From NCBI GenBank assembly GCA_016786595.1, contig JAEUWB010000047.1, forward strand, positions 1 to 39,101: 39,101 nt of DNA, written 5' to 3'. Below are positions 10,160-25,289 of this stretch, one piece after another; the first letter of the stretch is position 1, and each line of letters opens with the position of its first letter. The position numbers and the translations under genes were made by a program. The DNA comes from a bacterium (GTDB lineage: Bacteria; Bdellovibrionota_C; UBA2361; SZUA-149; JAEUWB01). The notes under the pieces were generated by a model that saw nothing but the letters and a program-made list of their open reading frames with translations, had not been told where the DNA came from and did no database searches.

Positions 10160-11675
<1,516 letters not shown>

Positions 11676-12095
11676 AAGGGAGCTTTCTTTCGGATCGCAC
11701 AACGTTCCTGAAAGACATGCTCACAGATTAGGAGCGTTCCTTGTTGATCTTTAGACGGATCGAGAAATTTTTATCGAATCGCACGTAATAAAAGCAAAAT
11801 TTCAGAGTGCCAAAAAATACTGAATTCAGTGTTTTAATCCTCTGATACTACTGGCAAATATACTTATCTTCTTCCCAGCTTATTTTTGAAAGACCTCGCT
11901 TGAGGCGGACATTAAATCGTTGCAAAACGATCTAATGTGGTTCTTTGACATTGTTATATGGGTAGACGAGCAACAACTGCGTAAGAGAGTTCAATTTTTG
12001 ATTCTCAACAAGCGACAAGTATAATTGTACCGCTGATTTTGTTAATTCAAAATCATGCGCGTTTCAATATTTACACATGACAAAGTTTTTTTTGT
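11676..12095 (+). other. 16S-23S spacer without tRNA genes
   Basis: About 420 bp. I see no tRNA-Ile or tRNA-Ala or other cloverleaf here. It contains the right arm of the 16S processing stem (11733-11747), a boxA-like GGTTCTTTGACATTG (starting at 11939), and two left arms of 23S processing stems. GGGTAGACGAGCAAC (11960-11974) pairs perfectly with 16864-16878. CATGACAAAG (12076-12085) pairs perfectly with 16821-16830. Confidence 0.7.
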
Positions 12096-12566
12096 GATTA
12101 AGTTACTAAGGGCGCACAGGGGATGCCTTGGCGTCTAGAGGCGATGAAGGACGTGGCAAAACTGCGATAAGCTTCGGGGAGCTGTTCAACAAGCATTGAT
12201 CCGAAGATTTCCGAATGGGGAAACCTGACTACCTAAGGTAGTCGCTCCGCAAGGAGAGCGAACTCAGGGAAGTGAAACATCTCAGTACCTGAAGGAAAAG
12301 AAATCAATAGAGATACCCGTAGTAGCGGTGAGCGAACCGGGTAGAGCCTAAACCATCGGAACTTCGGTTCTGATGGGGTTGTAGGGCGTGCAATAAAGCT
12401 GATCAAAGTCAATAATCGAAGAGCGTTGGAAAGCGCTGCCATAGAAGGTGATAGCCCTGTAGGTGAAATTGACAATGACGGTGAGTACGTACCTGAGTAC
12501 AGCGGGACACGTGGAACCCTGCTGGAATCTAGGAAGACCACTTTCTAAGGCTAAATACTACTAGAC

Positions 12567-12612
<46 letters not shown>

Positions 12613-13922
12613 GACGAGGGGAATGAAAAGATCCTGAAACTGTGTGTCTACAAGCAGTCGAAGCACTATGTTCGCAAGAACAGTGCGACGGCGTACCTTT
12701 TGCATCATGGGTCAGCGAGTTGCGCCTTTGTGGCAAGGTTAAGTCGATAAGACGGAGCCGAAGCGAAAGCGAGTCCTAACTGGGCGATTCAGTCACAAGG
12801 GGCAGACCCGAAGCCGAGTGATCTAACCATGGCCAGGATGAAGCTCGGGTAACACCGAGTGGAGGTCCGAACTGTAATACGTTGAAAAGTATTCGGATGA
12901 GCTGTGGTTTGGAGTGAAAGGCTAATCAAACTCGGAGATAGCTGGTTCTCTTCGAAATATATTGAGGTATAGCGTCGTGTATATTGAGCGGGGGTAGAGC
13001 ACTGAATGGACTAGGGGGCCTACCAGCCTACCAAACCCAAATAGCCTCCGAATACCGCTCAAGTAAAGCACGGCAGTCAGTTCGTGACTGATAAGGGCCA
13101 CGAGCGAGAGGGACAGACCCCAGACCGCCAGCTAAGGTCCCAAAATCAATGCTAAGTGGAAAACGATGTGAGACCGCTAAGACAGCCAGGAAGTTGGCTT
13201 AGAAGCAGCCACCTTTTTAAGAAAGCGTAATAGCTCACTGGTCGAGCGGGCTCGTGCGGAAAATTCAACGGGGCTAAAGCATTGTACCGAAGCTGCGGAT
13301 AGTAAGAATCCTACGGGATTTTTATTGTGGTAGAAGAGCGTTGTTAACAGGCTGAAGCATGATCGTAAGAACGTGTGGACAGTTAACAAGTGATAATGCT
13401 GACATGAGTAACGATAAACAAAGTGAAGAGCTTTGTCGCCGAAAACCCAAGGTTTCCTGAGCCAGGGTCATCCGCTCAGGGTTAGTCGGAGCCTAAGCTG
13501 AGGCCGAAAGGCGTAAGTGATGGTAAACAGGTTAATATTCCTGTCACCACAAGGCACATTGTGCGATGGAGAGACGGAGAAGGGTATGTCTACCGGGTAA
13601 TGGTTGTCCCGGAGAAAGTTCGTAGGCTGAAAGGATAGGTAAATCCGTTCTTTCTTAAGGCCGAGAAACGAGACCATCTGCGATCCGCAAGGGTCAAAGA
13701 GAAGTGACTGATCCCACGCTTCCTAGAAAATCTTCTAAGCCCGTGCTGCGTGTCCGTACCGGAAACCAACTCTGGTGGGTTAGTAGAGAATACTTAGGCG
13801 CTTGAGAGAACTCTGGTTAAGGAACTAGGCAAATTACTACCGTAACTTCGGGATAAGGTAGGCCTTCTATGGTGTAATACTTCGCGTATGAAGCTGCGGA
13901 AGGTTGCAGAGAGCAGGGGGTA

Positions 13923-13953
<31 letters not shown>

Positions 13954-14039
13954 AAACTCGTAAGAGGAGGTATAGGGTCTGACGCCTGCCCGGTGCCGGA
14001 AGGTTAAGGGGATTTGTCATCTCGTAAGAGAGAAGCTTT

Positions 14040-14074
<35 letters not shown>

Positions 14075-14818
14075 GAATCCGTTGTAGTTACGAAAATAAA
14101 TTTGGCTATATGCTGGAATATCCGATTGTATCCACAGATACTCGCACATATAATTTAGAAATAAATTAATGGGCAGTGACAACTCTAGTGGTGCGGACAA
14201 TCAGCAGGAAAGATTTAAGAAAATGAGTAAAACAGTTCCTCCAAATATTGGCTATTATTTAGCTGGTTTTGCTGATGGAGAGGGAAGCTTTAATGTTTCA
14301 TTCCGTCCGCGACCTGACTATATAATGCCATGGAAAGTTTCGTTATGTTTCAATATTTCTCAAAAAGATAAAGTAATACTGACGCTGTATAAAAAATATT
14401 TACAGTGTGGGACTTTACGAGGAAGAGCTGATGGAGTTTGGTATTTCGAAGTTAATAACTTTGAAGCGATTGTTTCAAATGTTATTCCTTTCTTCAAAAA
14501 ATATAAATTTCTATCGGCTAAGAAAAAACGAGACTTTCAAAAATTCATTCAGATTTCAGATTTAGTCAAAGAGCATGCTCATTTAACACGAGCTGGCATT
14601 GAAAAAATTCTGCAAATTCGAGCTGATATGAACGATGGTGGAAAAAGAAAGTACTCAGATGCTGAAATTATCAGCATTCTTAAAAATCCTCAGAGACTAC
14701 ATGCCAAACATTAGCTAAAATCTAATGATGATATAGTCCGAACTGCATAGCGATATGTAGAGCTTAGAAGAAATTCTAAGACGCTAAAAAGAAATTTTTA
14801 GTAGTAACATTTATAACG
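14075..14818 (+). mobile_element. Group I intron in 23S helix 69 (site about L1917)
   Basis: The 744-nt insert splits GTAACTAT/AACGGTCC. The 5' exon ends in U (14074) and the intron ends in G (14818), as group I splicing requires. A guide, GTAGTTACG (14084-14092), pairs over nine positions with exon CGTAACTAT (14066-14074), with a U-G wobble at the splice site. P7 is visible as CGGAC (14194-14198) with GTCCG (14736-14740), beside AATCAGCAGG and GATATAGTCC, the familiar core boxes. The P3-P4 region AAATTTGGCTATATGCTGG is shared with the second intron. The insertion site is the 1917 position used by some bacterial rRNA introns. It carries an endonuclease gene between the two P7 strands. Confidence 0.92.
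14223..14714 (+). CDS. LAGLIDADG homing endonuclease, single-motif type (intron 1)
   Basis: 163 residues from the ATG at 14223, preceded by AGGAAAGA. The frame is open further up to 14169, but that part would encode the intron's own P7 core, so I take the internal ATG. YYLAGFADGEGSF (residues 11-23) is the LAGLIDADG motif. Only one copy is seen, so by family rules the enzyme should act as a homodimer on a near-palindromic target, as I-CreI does. The motif's GEGSF form is typical of rRNA-intron endonucleases. The protein is Lys-rich and should cut intron-less 23S genes around TAACTATAACGGTCC. It lies wholly inside the intron. AT-rich codon use differs from the surrounding genes, fitting horizontal spread. 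Confidence 0.88.
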   Translation: MSKTVPPNIGYYLAGFADGEGSFNVSFRPRPDYIMPWKVSLCFNISQKDKVILTLYKKYLQCGTLRGRADGVWYFEVNNFEAIVSNVIPFFKKYKFLSAKKKRDFQKFIQISDLVKEHAHLTRAGIEKILQIRADMNDGGKRKYSDAEIISILKNPQRLHAKH

Positions 14819-14879
<61 letters not shown>

Positions 14880-15164
14880 CGACTTCCCCACTGTCTCAAC
14901 CAGAGACTCAGTGAAATTGAATTCGAAGTGAAGATGCTTCGTATCCGCGGAAAGACGGAAAGACCCTGTGCACCTTTACTACAACTTAGCGTTGAGCCTG
15001 GAGGCTGCATGTGTAGCATAGGTGGGAGACTTTGAAGTCGGAGCGCTAGCTCTGATGGAGTCATTAGTGAAATACCACCCTTGCATTCTCTAGATTCTAA
15101 CATTGGCGAGTGAATCCTCGCCGTGGACCACGCTTGGTGGGTAGTTTGACTGGGGCGGTCGCCT

Positions 15165-16162
15165 CGACCACAAGCCAGTATAAAAAGGAAATTTAGGGGC
15201 GCTTTAGTGGCAACACTAAAGGCAAATTTGGCTATATGCTGGAAAGTCCGTTCTCTCTAAATCTGTTTACTTTTTTCCGTTCGTAAATATTTAGAAGAGA
15301 TGTAGTATCCAACATTACACGCGCAACAAATTATTAGCGTGTGTGAAAATGTGTTTGGTGCGGGCAATCAGCAGGGAAGACCACTGAGATATACTCAATC
15401 TAGTGTATATTCTTATGTCCCCTCAACGACTAAACGCCGAACTTCCTCTAAAGGGAAGATGATATAGTCTGAACTTCCAGGCGACTGGAAGCCATAATAA
15501 TGGGGTCTTGCTAATATTTTATGCGATCGAAAAAGATCGAAGCACTTAAATTAAAGTTGAAATTGTCCGATCAGCAACGAGAAGTTCTGGTTGGATTACT
15601 ACTTGGTGATGCTTGCTTAGAGACTCAAAATGGGGGGAAAACTTACCGCCTAAAAATCGAGCAAAGTGAAAAGCACCAAGACTATCTTCAACACCTGTAT
15701 GATCTGTTTGCAGAGTGGGTCTTGACCCAACCTCGTAAACGACAAGTTCATTCTGGTGATTTTGTTTCTGTAAATCTAGCGTTTCAAACCGTAAGCCATA
15801 GCGCTTTTAGGTTTTATGCTCAAAATTTTTACGGTAATCAAAAAAAAACAGTACCAAAGTTAATTGGCCATTGGTTAACCCCAAAGGCGCTTGCTTATTG
15901 GTATATGGATGATGGTTCTATGAAATCAAAAGATTCAAAGGGAGTAATTTTCAACACACAAGGATTTACTAAGAATGAAGTCAATCTGCTTAGTAAGGTC
16001 CTCGGACATAAATACGGTTTAAGTGCAAAGTTAAGAAAGCAAAAGGATGGCCATCAGATTTACATTTCTGGATCTTCTTATGAAGACTTTATTCAGATTG
16101 TAAAGCCACATGTAATTCCTTCAATGCTTTATAAAATTCAAAAAGCAAGACAAACACAATTG
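15165..16162 (+). mobile_element. Group I intron after the 23S P-loop (site about L2262)
   Basis: The 998-nt insert splits GGTCGCCT/CCTAAAGAG. The 5' exon ends in U (15164) and the intron ends in G (16162). GGGCG at 15197-15201 can serve as guide for exon CGCCT with a terminal U-G pair. Core boxes AATCAGCAGG (near 15367) and GATATAGTCTGAAC (15461-15474) are present; P7 would be CGGGC/GTCTG with two wobbles. The P3-P4 stretch AAATTTGGCTATATGCTGG repeats intron 1. Its endonuclease gene lies after the second P7 strand, in the P9 region, unlike intron 1. Exact E. coli numbering is approximate. Confidence 0.9.
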
Positions 16163-16174
16163 CCTAAAGAGTAA
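15521..16174 (+). CDS. LAGLIDADG homing endonuclease, double-motif type (intron 2)
   Basis: 217 residues from the ATG at 15521. Two motifs are visible, LVGLLLGDACLE (residues 23-34) and ALAYWYMDDGSMK (123-135), placing it in the LAGLIDADG_2 group that works as a monomer. The family is thus different from the intron 1 enzyme, although the two ribozyme cores are related. The final intron codon TTG ends exactly on the terminal intron G. The last three sense codons and stop (CCT AAA GAG TAA, 16163-16174) are conserved 23S exon. The protein is therefore completed only from unspliced RNA. The target should be the intron-less junction near GGTCGCCTCCTAAAGAG. Confidence 0.9.
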   Translation: MRSKKIEALKLKLKLSDQQREVLVGLLLGDACLETQNGGKTYRLKIEQSEKHQDYLQHLYDLFAEWVLTQPRKRQVHSGDFVSVNLAFQTVSHSAFRFYAQNFYGNQKKTVPKLIGHWLTPKALAYWYMDDGSMKSKDSKGVIFNTQGFTKNEVNLLSKVLGHKYGLSAKLRKQKDGHQIYISGSSYEDFIQIVKPHVIPSMLYKIQKARQTQLPKE

Positions 16175-16327
16175 CGGAGGCGCGCAATGGTGGGCTCAGA
16201 CTGGTTGGAAATCAGTCGTACGAGTGTAAAGGCATAAGCCCGCTTAACTGTGAGAGAGACATTTCGAACAGGTACGAAAGTAGGCCTTAGTGATCCGGTG
16301 GTTCTTCGTGGAAGGGCCATCGCTCAT

Positions 16328-16430
<103 letters not shown>

Positions 16431-16434
16431 AAGT

Positions 16435-16471
<37 letters not shown>

Positions 16472-16801
16472 CACGCGAGCTGGGTTTAGAACGTCGTGAG
16501 ACAGTTCGGTCCCTATCTTCCGTGGACGCAGGAAAATTGAGAGGATTTGCTCTTAGTACGAGAGGACCGGAGCGAACATACCTCTAGTGGACCAGTTGTC
16601 CTGCCAAGGGCATAGCTGGGTAGCCAAGTATGGAAGGGATAACCGCTGAATGCATCTAAGCGGGAAGCCTACCTCAAGATTAGTTTTCCCACCCGCAAGG
16701 GCTAAAGGGACGTTGAAGACTACAACGTTGATAGGTTGGAGGTGGAAGTGCGGTAACGCATGTAGCTGACCAATACTAATGTTCCCGTGAGACTTAATCT
16801 T

Positions 16802-17062
16802 TTTTTCTTCTTTTTTAAATCTTTGTCATGCGCTGTTTGAGAATTAGAAATTTCTCTTACCATGTTGCTCGTCTACCCTTTTTTCTTTTTGATTTTCAAT
16901 AACATTCAATTAATTATCTAACACACTGCTTGGTCCTCAAGTCATTGCGAGCTTGCGATAGCAAGCGCGGCAATCTACTTGCATTTTGTGTCATTGCGAA
17001 CGAAGTGAAGCAATCTGTTAAGCAATATTTTGTTTTTTCTCATAAGCACTGAACAGCCTGCC
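16802..17062. other. 23S trailer: processing arms and T-runs, no 5S
   Basis: Right arms of two 23S processing stems lie at 16821-16830 and 16864-16878. The second is followed by TTTTTTCTTTTT, which may double as the transcription end. No 5S rRNA or tRNA follows the 23S gene. The rest holds two copies of a short dispersed-type repeat and AT-rich sequence. Confidence 0.7.
16941..17016. repeat. Two GTCATTGCGA...CAATCT elements in tandem
   Basis: The elements lie at 16941-16976 and 16990-17016. Each begins GTCATTGCGA and ends GCAATCT or GGCAATCT, so the ends ATTGC/GCAAT can pair. The first has an inner GCTTGC-GATA-GCAAGC hairpin. Short interspersed elements with these ends are common between genes in many bacteria and resemble REP-like sequences. 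Confidence 0.6.
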
Positions 17063-17692
17063 TTAAATCTTGCCCTCAAGCATAGACAACTGCCGATGAT
17101 GGAGTTTGGCGAATAAGAGTTGGGATATGATTGCCCCAACTAAACACAAAAACATATCCCATTGCGTGTCCCAGACATCGCCCTGAGTTCCTAGAAATGC
17201 AGTTGCTTGATCGTCGAACACCAAAGATACCCACCATTCAATCATTTCAAAAAAAGCACTGAAAGACAGGCACGCACAGGTTGTGCATAGAAACAGCCAG
17301 CCACCTGACTTTAAAGGCGATTTCCGAATAAAAATTTCTCGCGCCAAAATCGCAGGCACAAAGCCCTGCACAAAATGCCCCAGACGGTCATAGTGATTAC
17401 GTGAAAGTTCTAACAAATCCCTAACCCATAGACCGAGCGGTACTTTCTCGTATGTGTAATAACCCCCAAGAATTAAAACCAAAGCATGAAATGCTAGTAA
17501 ATAATAAAGCAGCCTAGTTAAAGGGAATGACCTTCGGGTTAAGTAAATTATTGGCAAACCTACAAAAACCCAGGACACCTCCAGTGCCCATGTAAAATGT
17601 TCTTCTGGATTAAGTCCAGACAAGACTAGTGCGAGTATCATCGTTGTAAACAACAGAGTTTGCTCTAAAGTCGGCTGTTTTAATTTGCCCAT
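17063..17692 (-). CDS. yjdF: YjdF/DUF2238-family inner-membrane protein
   Basis: 209 residues from the second of two adjacent ATGs. GAGGGA sits only about 2 nt from the first ATG but about 5 nt from the second, so the second is better placed. There are about six transmembrane helices. The family marks are clear: NHYDRLGHFVQGFVPAILAREI, FFEMIEWWVSL, and FLGTQGDVWDTQWDM. These conserved acidic, His and Trp residues line the predicted membrane core; the biochemical function of the family is unknown. It stands alone between the rRNA trailer and a divergent ABC operon. Confidence 0.88.
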   Translation of the reverse strand: MGKLKQPTLEQTLLFTTMILALVLSGLNPEEHFTWALEVSWVFVGLPIIYLTRRSFPLTRLLYYLLAFHALVLILGGYYTYEKVPLGLWVRDLLELSRNHYDRLGHFVQGFVPAILAREIFIRKSPLKSGGWLFLCTTCACLSFSAFFEMIEWWVSLVFDDQATAFLGTQGDVWDTQWDMFLCLVGAIISQLLFAKLHHRQLSMLEGKI

Positions 17693-23679: not shown

Positions 23680-24234
23680 ATGACTCGAGATAAACGCAAC
23701 TCAGCAAAACCCATCGAAAGACTGCTTTTTGGCAGTCGCTGGCTTTTGGCTCCGCTAAACTTAGCGGTAGCCTTCGGCCTACTACTTCTCGTCATTCGTT
23801 CTGGTCCACAAATCTGGAGCCTAACCATTGAAGCTGTCAGTCCTTCTAATGGTGAGAAGTTCATGAACGATCTACTGGCGCTTGCAGGTTCAGTGCTAAC
23901 AGCGGGCTTCCTCTATATCGTAATCATGAACTCGTGGGCGACCTATGTCTCCAGAGCAGACTTCACGGGCAATTCTGATGCTGCGCTATGGCGTAAAAGC
24001 ATGCCGGAAAGCGAACTTCGAGCTAAACAGTTCGGATCGCTAGCTTCGATTACAGCAGTTCGCTTACTCGATAGCACCAGCAAGTCTGCCAATGAAACCC
24101 ATATCTACCTGATGATCTTCGGGGCGTTCGTGCTGTCTGCACTTTGCTTTACTTGGATGCATCTTTCTCACACTGGACGCAAAGGTCATCATCAGGAAAA
24201 CGAAATATCCGAGGAAAAAGTGCAAGATAAGTGA
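23680..24234 (+). CDS. UPF0114 (YqhA-like) membrane protein
   Basis: 184 residues. The N-terminal IERLLFGSRWLLAPLNLAVAFGLLLLVI (residues 12-39) matches the family's ERxxxxSRWLLAP start. NDLLALAGSVLTAGFLYIVIMNSWATYVSR follows, then AKQFGSLASITAVRLLD, and a C-terminal helix (about 140-162). Three to four transmembrane segments are expected; the cytoplasmic tail is His- and Glu-rich. The role of the family is not established. The ATG at 23680 follows GAGGGCAATC. Confidence 0.85.
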   Translation: MTRDKRNSAKPIERLLFGSRWLLAPLNLAVAFGLLLLVIRSGPQIWSLTIEAVSPSNGEKFMNDLLALAGSVLTAGFLYIVIMNSWATYVSRADFTGNSDAALWRKSMPESELRAKQFGSLASITAVRLLDSTSKSANETHIYLMIFGAFVLSALCFTWMHLSHTGRKGHHQENEISEEKVQDK

Positions 24235-24322
24235 GTGAATCGAAGACAACGACTAAGTCTGGTTATTGCAAAAGCCCTAGCCAGACATCAAGACAGAATA
24301 GATTTGAACTTGTTTGAGAGAT

Positions 24323-24361
24323 CCGCCTACGCCCTTCGATGAACTCAGGGCTCCGGCGGAT
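24323..24361. repeat. CCCTTCGATGAACTCAGGGC hairpin element
   Basis: Outer arms CCGCC/GGCGG and inner arms GCCCT/AGGGC enclose TCGATGAACTC. The inner part is a variant of the widespread CCCTTCGACAAGCTCAGGG-type intergenic repeat. Confidence 0.5.
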
Positions 24362-24363
24362 TA

Positions 24364-24395
24364 TTTTTATTTTCCGCAGATGCGGAAAATAAAAA
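24364..24395. terminator. AT-flanked hairpin after the UPF0114 gene
   Basis: TTTTATTTTCCGCA-GA-TGCGGAAAATAAAA forms a 14 to 15-bp stem with a tiny loop. It ends where the duplicated 5S terminator begins, so the region is a likely transcription end for the plus strand. Confidence 0.5.
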
Positions 24396-24470
24396 ACCCC
24401 AAGTATCTTTTAGAGATACTTGGGGCACAAAAAAACTGGCAATGACCCTTTCCCATCATGTGATAGTATC
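24385..24470 (-). repeat. Duplicate of the 5S 3' end plus its terminator
   Basis: 86 bp here match 24644-24731 (88 bp) apart from a 2-bp deletion (GACCCTTT against GACCTACTTT). The copy contains the full 5S terminator hairpin and about the last 40 nt of 5S, then breaks off. It is a 5S remnant and not a functional rRNA. Confidence 0.9.
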
Positions 24471-24643
24471 TCAAAGTCCATTTAAATCTTTAATTTTGGT
24501 CAAATACTGCGTTGCGGAAGATTTCTGCGGTTGCGCACCTACAAACGTAGGCTTGCGCTCCTCGAAATTTCTGCGCCTTGTCTTTGCCTCAAAACTAAAG
24601 ATTTAATCTGGACTTTGTAGGTCGAATGGGAAAGTAGGTCCCA
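24471..24643. other. Imperfect palindrome between the two 5S-terminator copies
   Basis: AAAGTCCATTTAAATCTTTA near the left pairs almost fully with TAAAGATTTAATCTGGACTTT near the right. ATGGGAAAGTAGGTCC at the right end is a plus-strand 5S 3' piece, inverted relative to the remnant on the left. A smaller hairpin (CCTAC-AAAC-GTAGG, flanked by GCGC pairings) marks the centre. No coding frame is convincing. It reads as an insertion or fold-back rearrangement inside a duplicated 5S end. Confidence 0.6.
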
Positions 24644-24649
24644 GAAAAT

Positions 24650-24684
24650 AAAAAACCCCAAGTATCTTTTAGAGATACTTGGGG
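24650..24684 (-). terminator. Intrinsic terminator of the 5S gene
   Basis: On the minus strand, CCCCAAGTATCT pairs perfectly with AGATACTTGGGG over a short loop and is followed by a run of six T. It starts about 10 nt after the 5S end. Confidence 0.9.
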
Positions 24685-24693
24685 CACAAAAAA

Positions 24694-24804
24694 ACTGGCA
24701 ATGACCTACTTTCCCATCATGTGATAGTATCATCGGCGCTGAAGGTCTTAACTGCTGAGTTCGGAATGGGATCAGGTGTTTCCCCCTCGCTACTACCGCC
24801 AGAG
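24694..24804 (-). rRNA. rrf: 5S ribosomal RNA, stand-alone
   Basis: The minus strand reads CTCTGGCGGTAGTAGCGAGG..., then the loop-C landmark CCATTCCGAACTCAGCAGTTAA, then CAGCGCCGATGATACT, and ends GGTCATTGCCAG. Helix I forms from CTGGC (24802-24798) and GCCAG (24699-24695). Length of about 111 nt is normal. It lies about 8 kb from the 23S gene and on the opposite strand, with its own promoter and terminator. Ends are estimated. Confidence 0.95.
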
Positions 24805-24810
24805 GCATGT

Positions 24811-24839
24811 CTTATAGATAATTAATTATTTAAGATCAA
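24811..24839 (-). promoter_or_regulatory. Promoter of the stand-alone 5S gene
   Basis: On the minus strand TTGATC (24839-24834), a 17-bp spacer and TATAAG (24816-24811) form a good sigma-70-like promoter. The expected start, about 7 nt downstream, falls at the 5S 5' end, so little processing would be needed. Confidence 0.7.
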
Positions 24840-24846
24840 GAGAGAC

Positions 24847-24890
24847 TGCCGAAATTATTATAAATAGAAAATTCAGTAATAATTTCGGCA
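24847..24890 (-). terminator. Hairpin after the RRM protein gene
   Basis: TGCCGAAATTATTA (24847-24860) pairs perfectly with TAATAATTTCGGCA (24877-24890) around a 16-nt AT-rich loop. It lies between the RRM gene stop and the 5S promoter on the same strand. No clean T-run follows. Confidence 0.6.
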
Positions 24891-24908
24891 AGTTAAGAAG
24901 GGTAGGGA

Positions 24909-25289
24909 CTACCAGCGATCGCCCCCGCGGTCGTTACGGTCACGACGAGGCTTTCCGCCGCCGCCGCCAAAACCACCGCCGCCACCTGGACGACGATTTC
25001 CACCACCACCTGGACGACGATTTCCACCACCGCCACCACCGCCTTCTGTCTTAGGACGAGCTTCGTTTACAACGATTGTGCGGCCCTTAAGGTTTTGACC
25101 ATTAAGACCTTCAATCGCACGCTTTGCTTCTTCGTCTGAATCCATCTCAACAAAGCCGAAGCCTTTTGAGTGACCAGAGAATTTGTCCATAATAACATTT
25201 GCTGATTTTACTGATCCATAGGCCTCAAAAGCACCTTTAAGATCTTCAGCTGTTACTTCGTATGATAAACTACCAACGTATATATTCAC
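24909..25289 (-). CDS. Glycine-rich RRM RNA-binding protein
   Basis: 126 residues. One RRM domain covers about residues 1-78, with RNP2 IYVGSL (3-8) and RNP1 KGFGFVEM (42-49). The tail (about 82-126) is made of Gly runs broken by repeated NRRPGGGG and ends in an Arg/Asp-rich RDRNDRGGDRW. Bacterial proteins of this build are small, often abundant and often cold-induced RNA chaperones. The start is a GTG at 25289-25287 with AGAGGTAA upstream. It is transcribed alone and followed by a hairpin. The roughly 590-bp gap upstream leaves room for a regulated 5' leader. Confidence 0.92.
   Translation of the reverse strand: MNIYVGSLSYEVTAEDLKGAFEAYGSVKSANVIMDKFSGHSKGFGFVEMDSDEEAKRAIEGLNGQNLKGRTIVVNEARPKTEGGGGGGGNRRPGGGGNRRPGGGGGFGGGGGKPRRDRNDRGGDRW

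Follow-up and report, generated by a model that had tools for sequence, protein, structure and literature searches.

A single-copy 5S rRNA gene detached from the 16S-23S rRNA genes, with an inversion as its proposed origin

The sole 5S rRNA gene detected in this genome lies 7.9 kb from the end of the 23S rRNA gene and on the opposite strand (Table 1). We judge it fairly probable that the 5S gene left the rrn operon by an inversion and is now a transcription unit of a single gene, equipped with a candidate promoter and a terminator. The stretch of DNA analyzed here (the window) is the whole of contig C47, with a length of 39,101 bases, and belongs to a draft genome of 2,575,016 bases in 60 contigs that is 96.8% complete. 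On the minus strand, a gene for an RRM protein, a 14-bp hairpin, TTGATC, 17 nt, TATAAG, the 5S gene, and a 13-pair terminator follow one another in this order.

The 5S gene matched the entire Rfam model (RF00001; positions 1-120 of 120) at 83.7 bits, the gathering score being 38. Helix I is formed by eight canonical pairs in the minimum-energy fold, and the alignment to the family structure placed non-standard columns in no more than five pairs, the standard three-way architecture being retained. The stability of the minimum-energy fold was no greater than that of shuffled sequences (z of 0.09). The genome searches returned one match each for 5S, 16S, and 23S rRNA, and the latter two reside on the same unbroken contig as the 5S gene. 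As contigs tend to end at rrn operons that are present in several copies, this arrangement is consistent with single rRNA genes, and we rejected a second rrn operon within the limits of the draft. An earlier note on this DNA had described the 5S gene as unlinked from 16S-23S, about 8 kb away on the opposite strand, and the Rfam coordinates agree with that description. The 5S gene is not downstream of the 23S gene, and another rrn operon with a linked 5S gene, which the earlier note had named as the finding that would speak against its claim, was sought but not found in the 60 contigs of the 96.8% complete draft.

Table 1. Features of the window that bear on the 5S rRNA gene and the 16S-23S operon (positions in the window).
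Feature	Position	Strand	Basis
16S rRNA gene, sole copy found	10160..11675	plus	Rfam
23S processing stem, 5' strand (GGGTAGACGAGCAACA)	11960..11975	plus	exact complement of 16863-16878
23S rRNA gene with two intron insertions	12096..16801	plus	Rfam, genome search
23S processing stem, 3' strand	16863..16878	plus	read from sequence
Left repeat copy, 107 nt past the 23S end	16908..16920	plus	repeat search
Decayed second 5S (nucleotides 73-111, 2 bases missing), then a perfect terminator copy	24385..24470	minus	direct repeats
Palindromic (MITE-like) element between the inverted and direct 5S fragments	24472..24617		arms 24482-24498 / 24590-24606
Inverted copy of 5S nucleotides 87-101 (from the 3' part of 5S)	24626..24640	plus	15 nt exact; P 0.003
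Intrinsic terminator of 5S, 13 pairs, then TTTTTTATTTT	24655..24685	minus	terminator scan, fold
5S rRNA gene, sole copy found in the genome	24693..24803	minus	Rfam, genome search, predicted fold
Candidate promoter TTGATC - 17 nt - TATAAG	24811..24839	minus	read from sequence; 9/12 consensus matches
Right repeat copy AATTAATTATCTA, overlapping the spacer of the promoter and the beginning of its -10 box; proposed inversion breakpoint	24815..24827	minus	repeat search
14-bp hairpin in the gap from the RRM gene to 5S, no T run behind	24847..24890	minus	inverted repeat, folds
Glycine-rich RRM RNA-binding protein gene	24909..25289	minus	Pfam RRM_1, 1.2e-22

The 16S and 23S genes together span positions 10160-16801 of the plus strand, and the leader and trailer of the 23S gene can pair in a perfect stem of 16 bp. 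Neither an intrinsic terminator (terminator scan of 16700-17200) nor a 5S gene (permissive Rfam scan of 16650-17200) was found behind the 23S gene. We also rejected the possibility that a linked 5S, intact or as a remnant, is concealed at this place, as the alignment of the 5S sequence to 16802-17062 gave P values of 0.07 (direct) and 0.62 (inverted) and the permissive Rfam scan contained no 5S. Apart from the layout of the operon, the 23S gene carries two insertions (14080-16180), each with a LAGLIDADG protein detected by Pfam (14169-14714 and 15521-16174). Rfam recognized a group I intron in the second insertion only (15183-15491; 81 bits). The protein of the first insertion shares 70% identity with a protein in the 23S gene of another member of the class (G002), and group I introns are also present in the 23S loci of G002, G014, G020, G021, and G033.

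The candidate promoter of the 5S gene comprises TTGATC (24839-24834) and TATAAG (24816-24811) separated by a spacer of 17 nt. As the -10 box ends at 24811, transcription would be expected to start around 24804, approximately 1 nt before the predicted 5' end of mature 5S rRNA (24803). The earlier note had proposed exactly this pair of boxes, with the start placed at the mature end, together with a strong terminator, and the sequence agrees with both proposals: the boxes constitute a putative promoter with 9/12 consensus matches (P of 0.035), and a 13-pair hairpin followed by a T run lies at 24685-24655, so that the separate 5S gene has a predicted terminator of its own. A 9/12 box at the right offset arose in 3.5% of 3000 simulations of random sequence of the same composition, in which gap and spacer were free to vary; of 3026 actual intergenic positions on the contig, 2.3% reached this score as well. 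The same scoring was applied to 20 5S leaders of the class, of which that of the window was the highest (9/12), followed by those of G017 and G019 (8/12), the rest scoring 4-7. The 5S gene of G019 is linked to 23S, and thus a score of 8/12 does not prove that a 5S gene stands alone. A stricter scan, in which T was required at the end of the -10 box, omitted TTGATC/TATAAG and picked a second 9/12 box on the minus strand (24852-24825), which ends 14 nt further upstream. Altogether, we regard the box as suggestive of a promoter, that is, as fair but not strong evidence.

Transcription from its own promoter appears to be the likeliest mode of 5S expression, and the chief rival is read-through from the RRM gene, by which 5S rRNA would be cut by RNases out of the RRM transcript with no promoter of its own. 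The RRM gene lies upstream on the same strand with a gap of 105 nt, and the intervening hairpin, behind which no T run is present, may mark where the RRM transcript ends or could serve processing rather than termination. Promoter-like boxes are also present on the minus strand upstream of the RRM gene, the best being TTGAAA/TATTAT with 10/12 matches. We nevertheless regard read-through as unlikely, since a fitting box is placed exactly at the 5S start and, on general knowledge, a 5S gene tied to one mRNA would be a poor match to the output of 16S-23S.

We surveyed 45 genomes of the class, and 21 of them gave 22 5S matches including that of the window. The 5S gene was detected in seven of the 14 relatives belonging to the same order and was located directly behind the 23S gene in all seven. 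The other orders of the class contributed 14 matches, eight of which were linked (G016, G019, G020, G021-C1, G026, G032, G033, and G040). The 5S of G024 is probably linked as well, its 23S gene being largely inside a run of 2500 N; we rejected G024 as a second case of split 5S, as this run occupies the place where the 23S gene should continue. In four cases (G030, G031, G038, and G021-C224), the contig ends near the 5S gene and linkage is not readable. Outside the class, 12 outgroup genomes yielded seven 5S matches, all of which were linked. As the same-order relatives and outgroups with a detected 5S gene have it linked, we conclude that linkage is ancestral and that the split in the window is derived. 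The statement in the earlier note that split 5S genes are uncommon applies to this order, in which the 5S gene is linked in the seven other genomes with a detected one, but does not extend to bacteria in general, as split 5S genes have been published for other bacteria. No further member of the family or genus of the window was present among the class and outgroup genomes searched. A scan of genome contigs with the argininosuccinate synthase gave matches scattered over different phyla, and this gene therefore does not point to a lineage. When 33 of the 46 open reading frames listed for the window were compared, as proteins, with the rRNA loci of the 14 relatives, the matches comprised the two intron proteins and the RRM protein only, which leaves no synteny from which the former gene order could be read.

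The last 5S match of the class, that of G017 (L120 2910-3020), is preceded by 2909 nt in which a tRNA and an open reading frame but no 23S gene were found. A box, TTGCGT-17-TAGAAT, lies 6 nt before this 5S (8/12; P of 0.08), and the search for a 23S gene in the G017 assembly found none. G017 is possibly a second, independent case of split 5S in the class.

An exact inverted repeat of 13 nt, AATTAATTATCTA, is shared by the trailer of the 23S gene (16908-16920) and the leader of the 5S gene (24827-24815). It is the longest exact inverted match between 16802-17400 and 24000-25200, and the chance of such a repeat in the two intergenic regions was 0.001 (2000 simulations), a value to be read with the repeat being short, AT-rich, and spotted post hoc. 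If the flip of the 7.9-kb segment is undone, the 5S gene comes to lie on the plus strand 130 nt after the 23S gene, within the range of 114-222 nt observed in the seven same-order relatives. A short motif, GTCATTGCGA...GCAATCT, was noticed by eye to occur twice at 16950-17020, just to the right of the left proposed breakpoint.

In the course of events that we infer, the 5S gene would originally have been located directly behind the 23S gene, and the segment 16921-24814 would then have been inverted with both ends within the 13-nt repeat, taking the 5S gene out of the operon. The terminator would have departed together with the 5S gene, which fits the absence of a terminator behind the 23S gene. 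As the breakpoint falls inside the present promoter, the inversion would have assembled that promoter. The spacer that formerly separated 23S and 5S would have contributed most of the -10 box and its 3' flank, and the RRM side of the breakpoint the -35 box. RNA polymerase would now initiate 1 nt ahead of the 5' end of mature 5S rRNA, so that little 5' trimming would be needed, and stop at the 13-pair terminator.

The surroundings of the 5S gene contain further 5S-derived sequences. Two direct repeats (63 nt and 23 nt), both 100% identical, connect the decayed second 5S to the live gene and its terminator, and the score of the decayed copy, 34, was reached by none of 200 shuffles. The inverted 5S fragment and the palindromic element sit between the two copies of the terminator, and the element has diverged copies on C53 (79%) and C45 (77%) and partial copies on C33 and C49. 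Across 29 5S loci and four kinds of fragments, seven of 112 shuffle tests gave p <=0.01. Three of the 29 loci pass this threshold with an inverted fragment that derives from the 3' part of 5S and lies 53-87 nt downstream of the gene (G000, that is, the genome of the window, as well as G016 and G038), and larger numbers of shuffles gave P of 0.003, 0 of 4000, and 0.0005 for these fragments, respectively; that of G020 was not significant (P of 0.066). In G016 and G038, the inverted copies of the 5S 3' end lie shortly behind the terminator (L028 897-914, and downstream of 5S in L123/L027). Direct fragments occur downstream of 5S in G000 and upstream in G024, G033, and G038, and no 5S fragment was found in the seven outgroup loci. 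A mobile origin of the inverted fragments was rejected, as their 13-base pattern was found only in or beside 5S genes in seven genomes and is thus not dispersed there. We read the 5S fragments as debris of partial 5S duplications; for a function as an antisense or processing element, the evidence from three of 29 loci is thin. A natural antisense RNA to 5S rRNA has been reported from tobacco chloroplasts (PMC3017836).

The gene order around 5S bears on how the split arose. The nearest relative found for the RRM protein is that of G002 (65% identity; sister with a support of 0.90 among 30 sequences), and a search of viral contigs with the RRM protein gave no match. The G002 gene (L159 9789-10351) follows a linked 5S gene at a distance of approximately 100 nt, and the order is swapped in the window. 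A single inversion cannot turn the order 5S-RRM of G002 into RRM-5S, and either two inversions or a duplication is needed. In the former route, the RRM gene would have been inverted with its adjoining genes, and the 5S gene would then have been inverted with those genes. In the latter, a second 5S gene or a repeat of 5S-RRM would have arisen near the operon, the linked copy would have been deleted, and the survivor would later have been flipped or moved. Such a duplication accounts for the swapped order and agrees with the partial second 5S and terminator adjoining the live gene, as well as with the 5S fragments beside the 5S genes of G016, G024, G033, and G038, partial copies being common in the class. 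On the other hand, no 5S remnant was found behind the 23S gene, and duplication alone leaves the 13-nt inverted repeat unexplained. Thus, we consider duplication a possible but less likely origin. That the contig was wrongly joined in assembly or binning is very improbable. The draft is in 60 contigs and repeats adjoin the 5S gene, but a false inversion requires its two ends to share a long inverted repeat, and the longest exact one found between 16802-17400 and 24000-25200 has 13 nt. In addition, the sister relationship between the RRM of the window and the 5S-adjacent RRM of G002 implies that the neighborhood belongs to this lineage.

Inversion is the reading that we retain. A bolder version of it, which we put forward tentatively and hold to be doubtful, is that the birth of an independent 5S unit is preserved here: an inversion via the 13-nt repeat would have removed 5S and its terminator and, at the same time, built a promoter out of a -10 box from the old spacer and a -35 box from the sequence that flanks the RRM gene on its 3' side. 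In this version, the inverted 3'-end copies of 5S in G000, G016, and G038, which represent three families of the class, may be more than debris and act, for instance, in antisense or in processing.

Ribosomes need 5S and 23S rRNA in equal numbers, and a shared operon is thought to secure this equality. A genome with single-copy rrn genes and a detached 5S gene puts to a natural test the ability of separate promoters to provide 5S and 23S rRNA in equal amounts, and the locus may show how the detachment of 5S arose. The separate dosage control that the earlier note had described as a need of split 5S loci is conjectural for this genome. Neither a description of this locus nor one of a split 5S made by inversion was found in the open-licence literature. 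Brewer and colleagues reportedly described, in 2020, unlinked 16S and 23S-5S rRNA genes, and Mycoplasma suis is one such case. The present genome resembles those systems in that the standard rrn operon appears to be broken into separately transcribed pieces, but differs in that 5S is cut off from a joined 16S-23S here, whereas 16S is cut off from a joined 23S-5S there. In Francisella, too, a 5S sequence is reported to lie outside the operons (PMC3479022); in contrast to the sole 5S found here, it is extra to three complete operons. The closest layout is that of Mycoplasma flocculare and M. bovoculi, which are reported to have single copies of the rRNA genes, with 16S-23S together and 5S separate (PMC4357767 and PMC3931370), as in the present genome. 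The two mycoplasmas have small genomes and belong to an unrelated lineage, whereas the genome studied here is 2.6 Mb in size; its 5S gene lies 7.9 kb off on the other strand. The split layout of 5S is therefore already known in bacteria, and what the present locus adds is a plausible and testable record of its origin.
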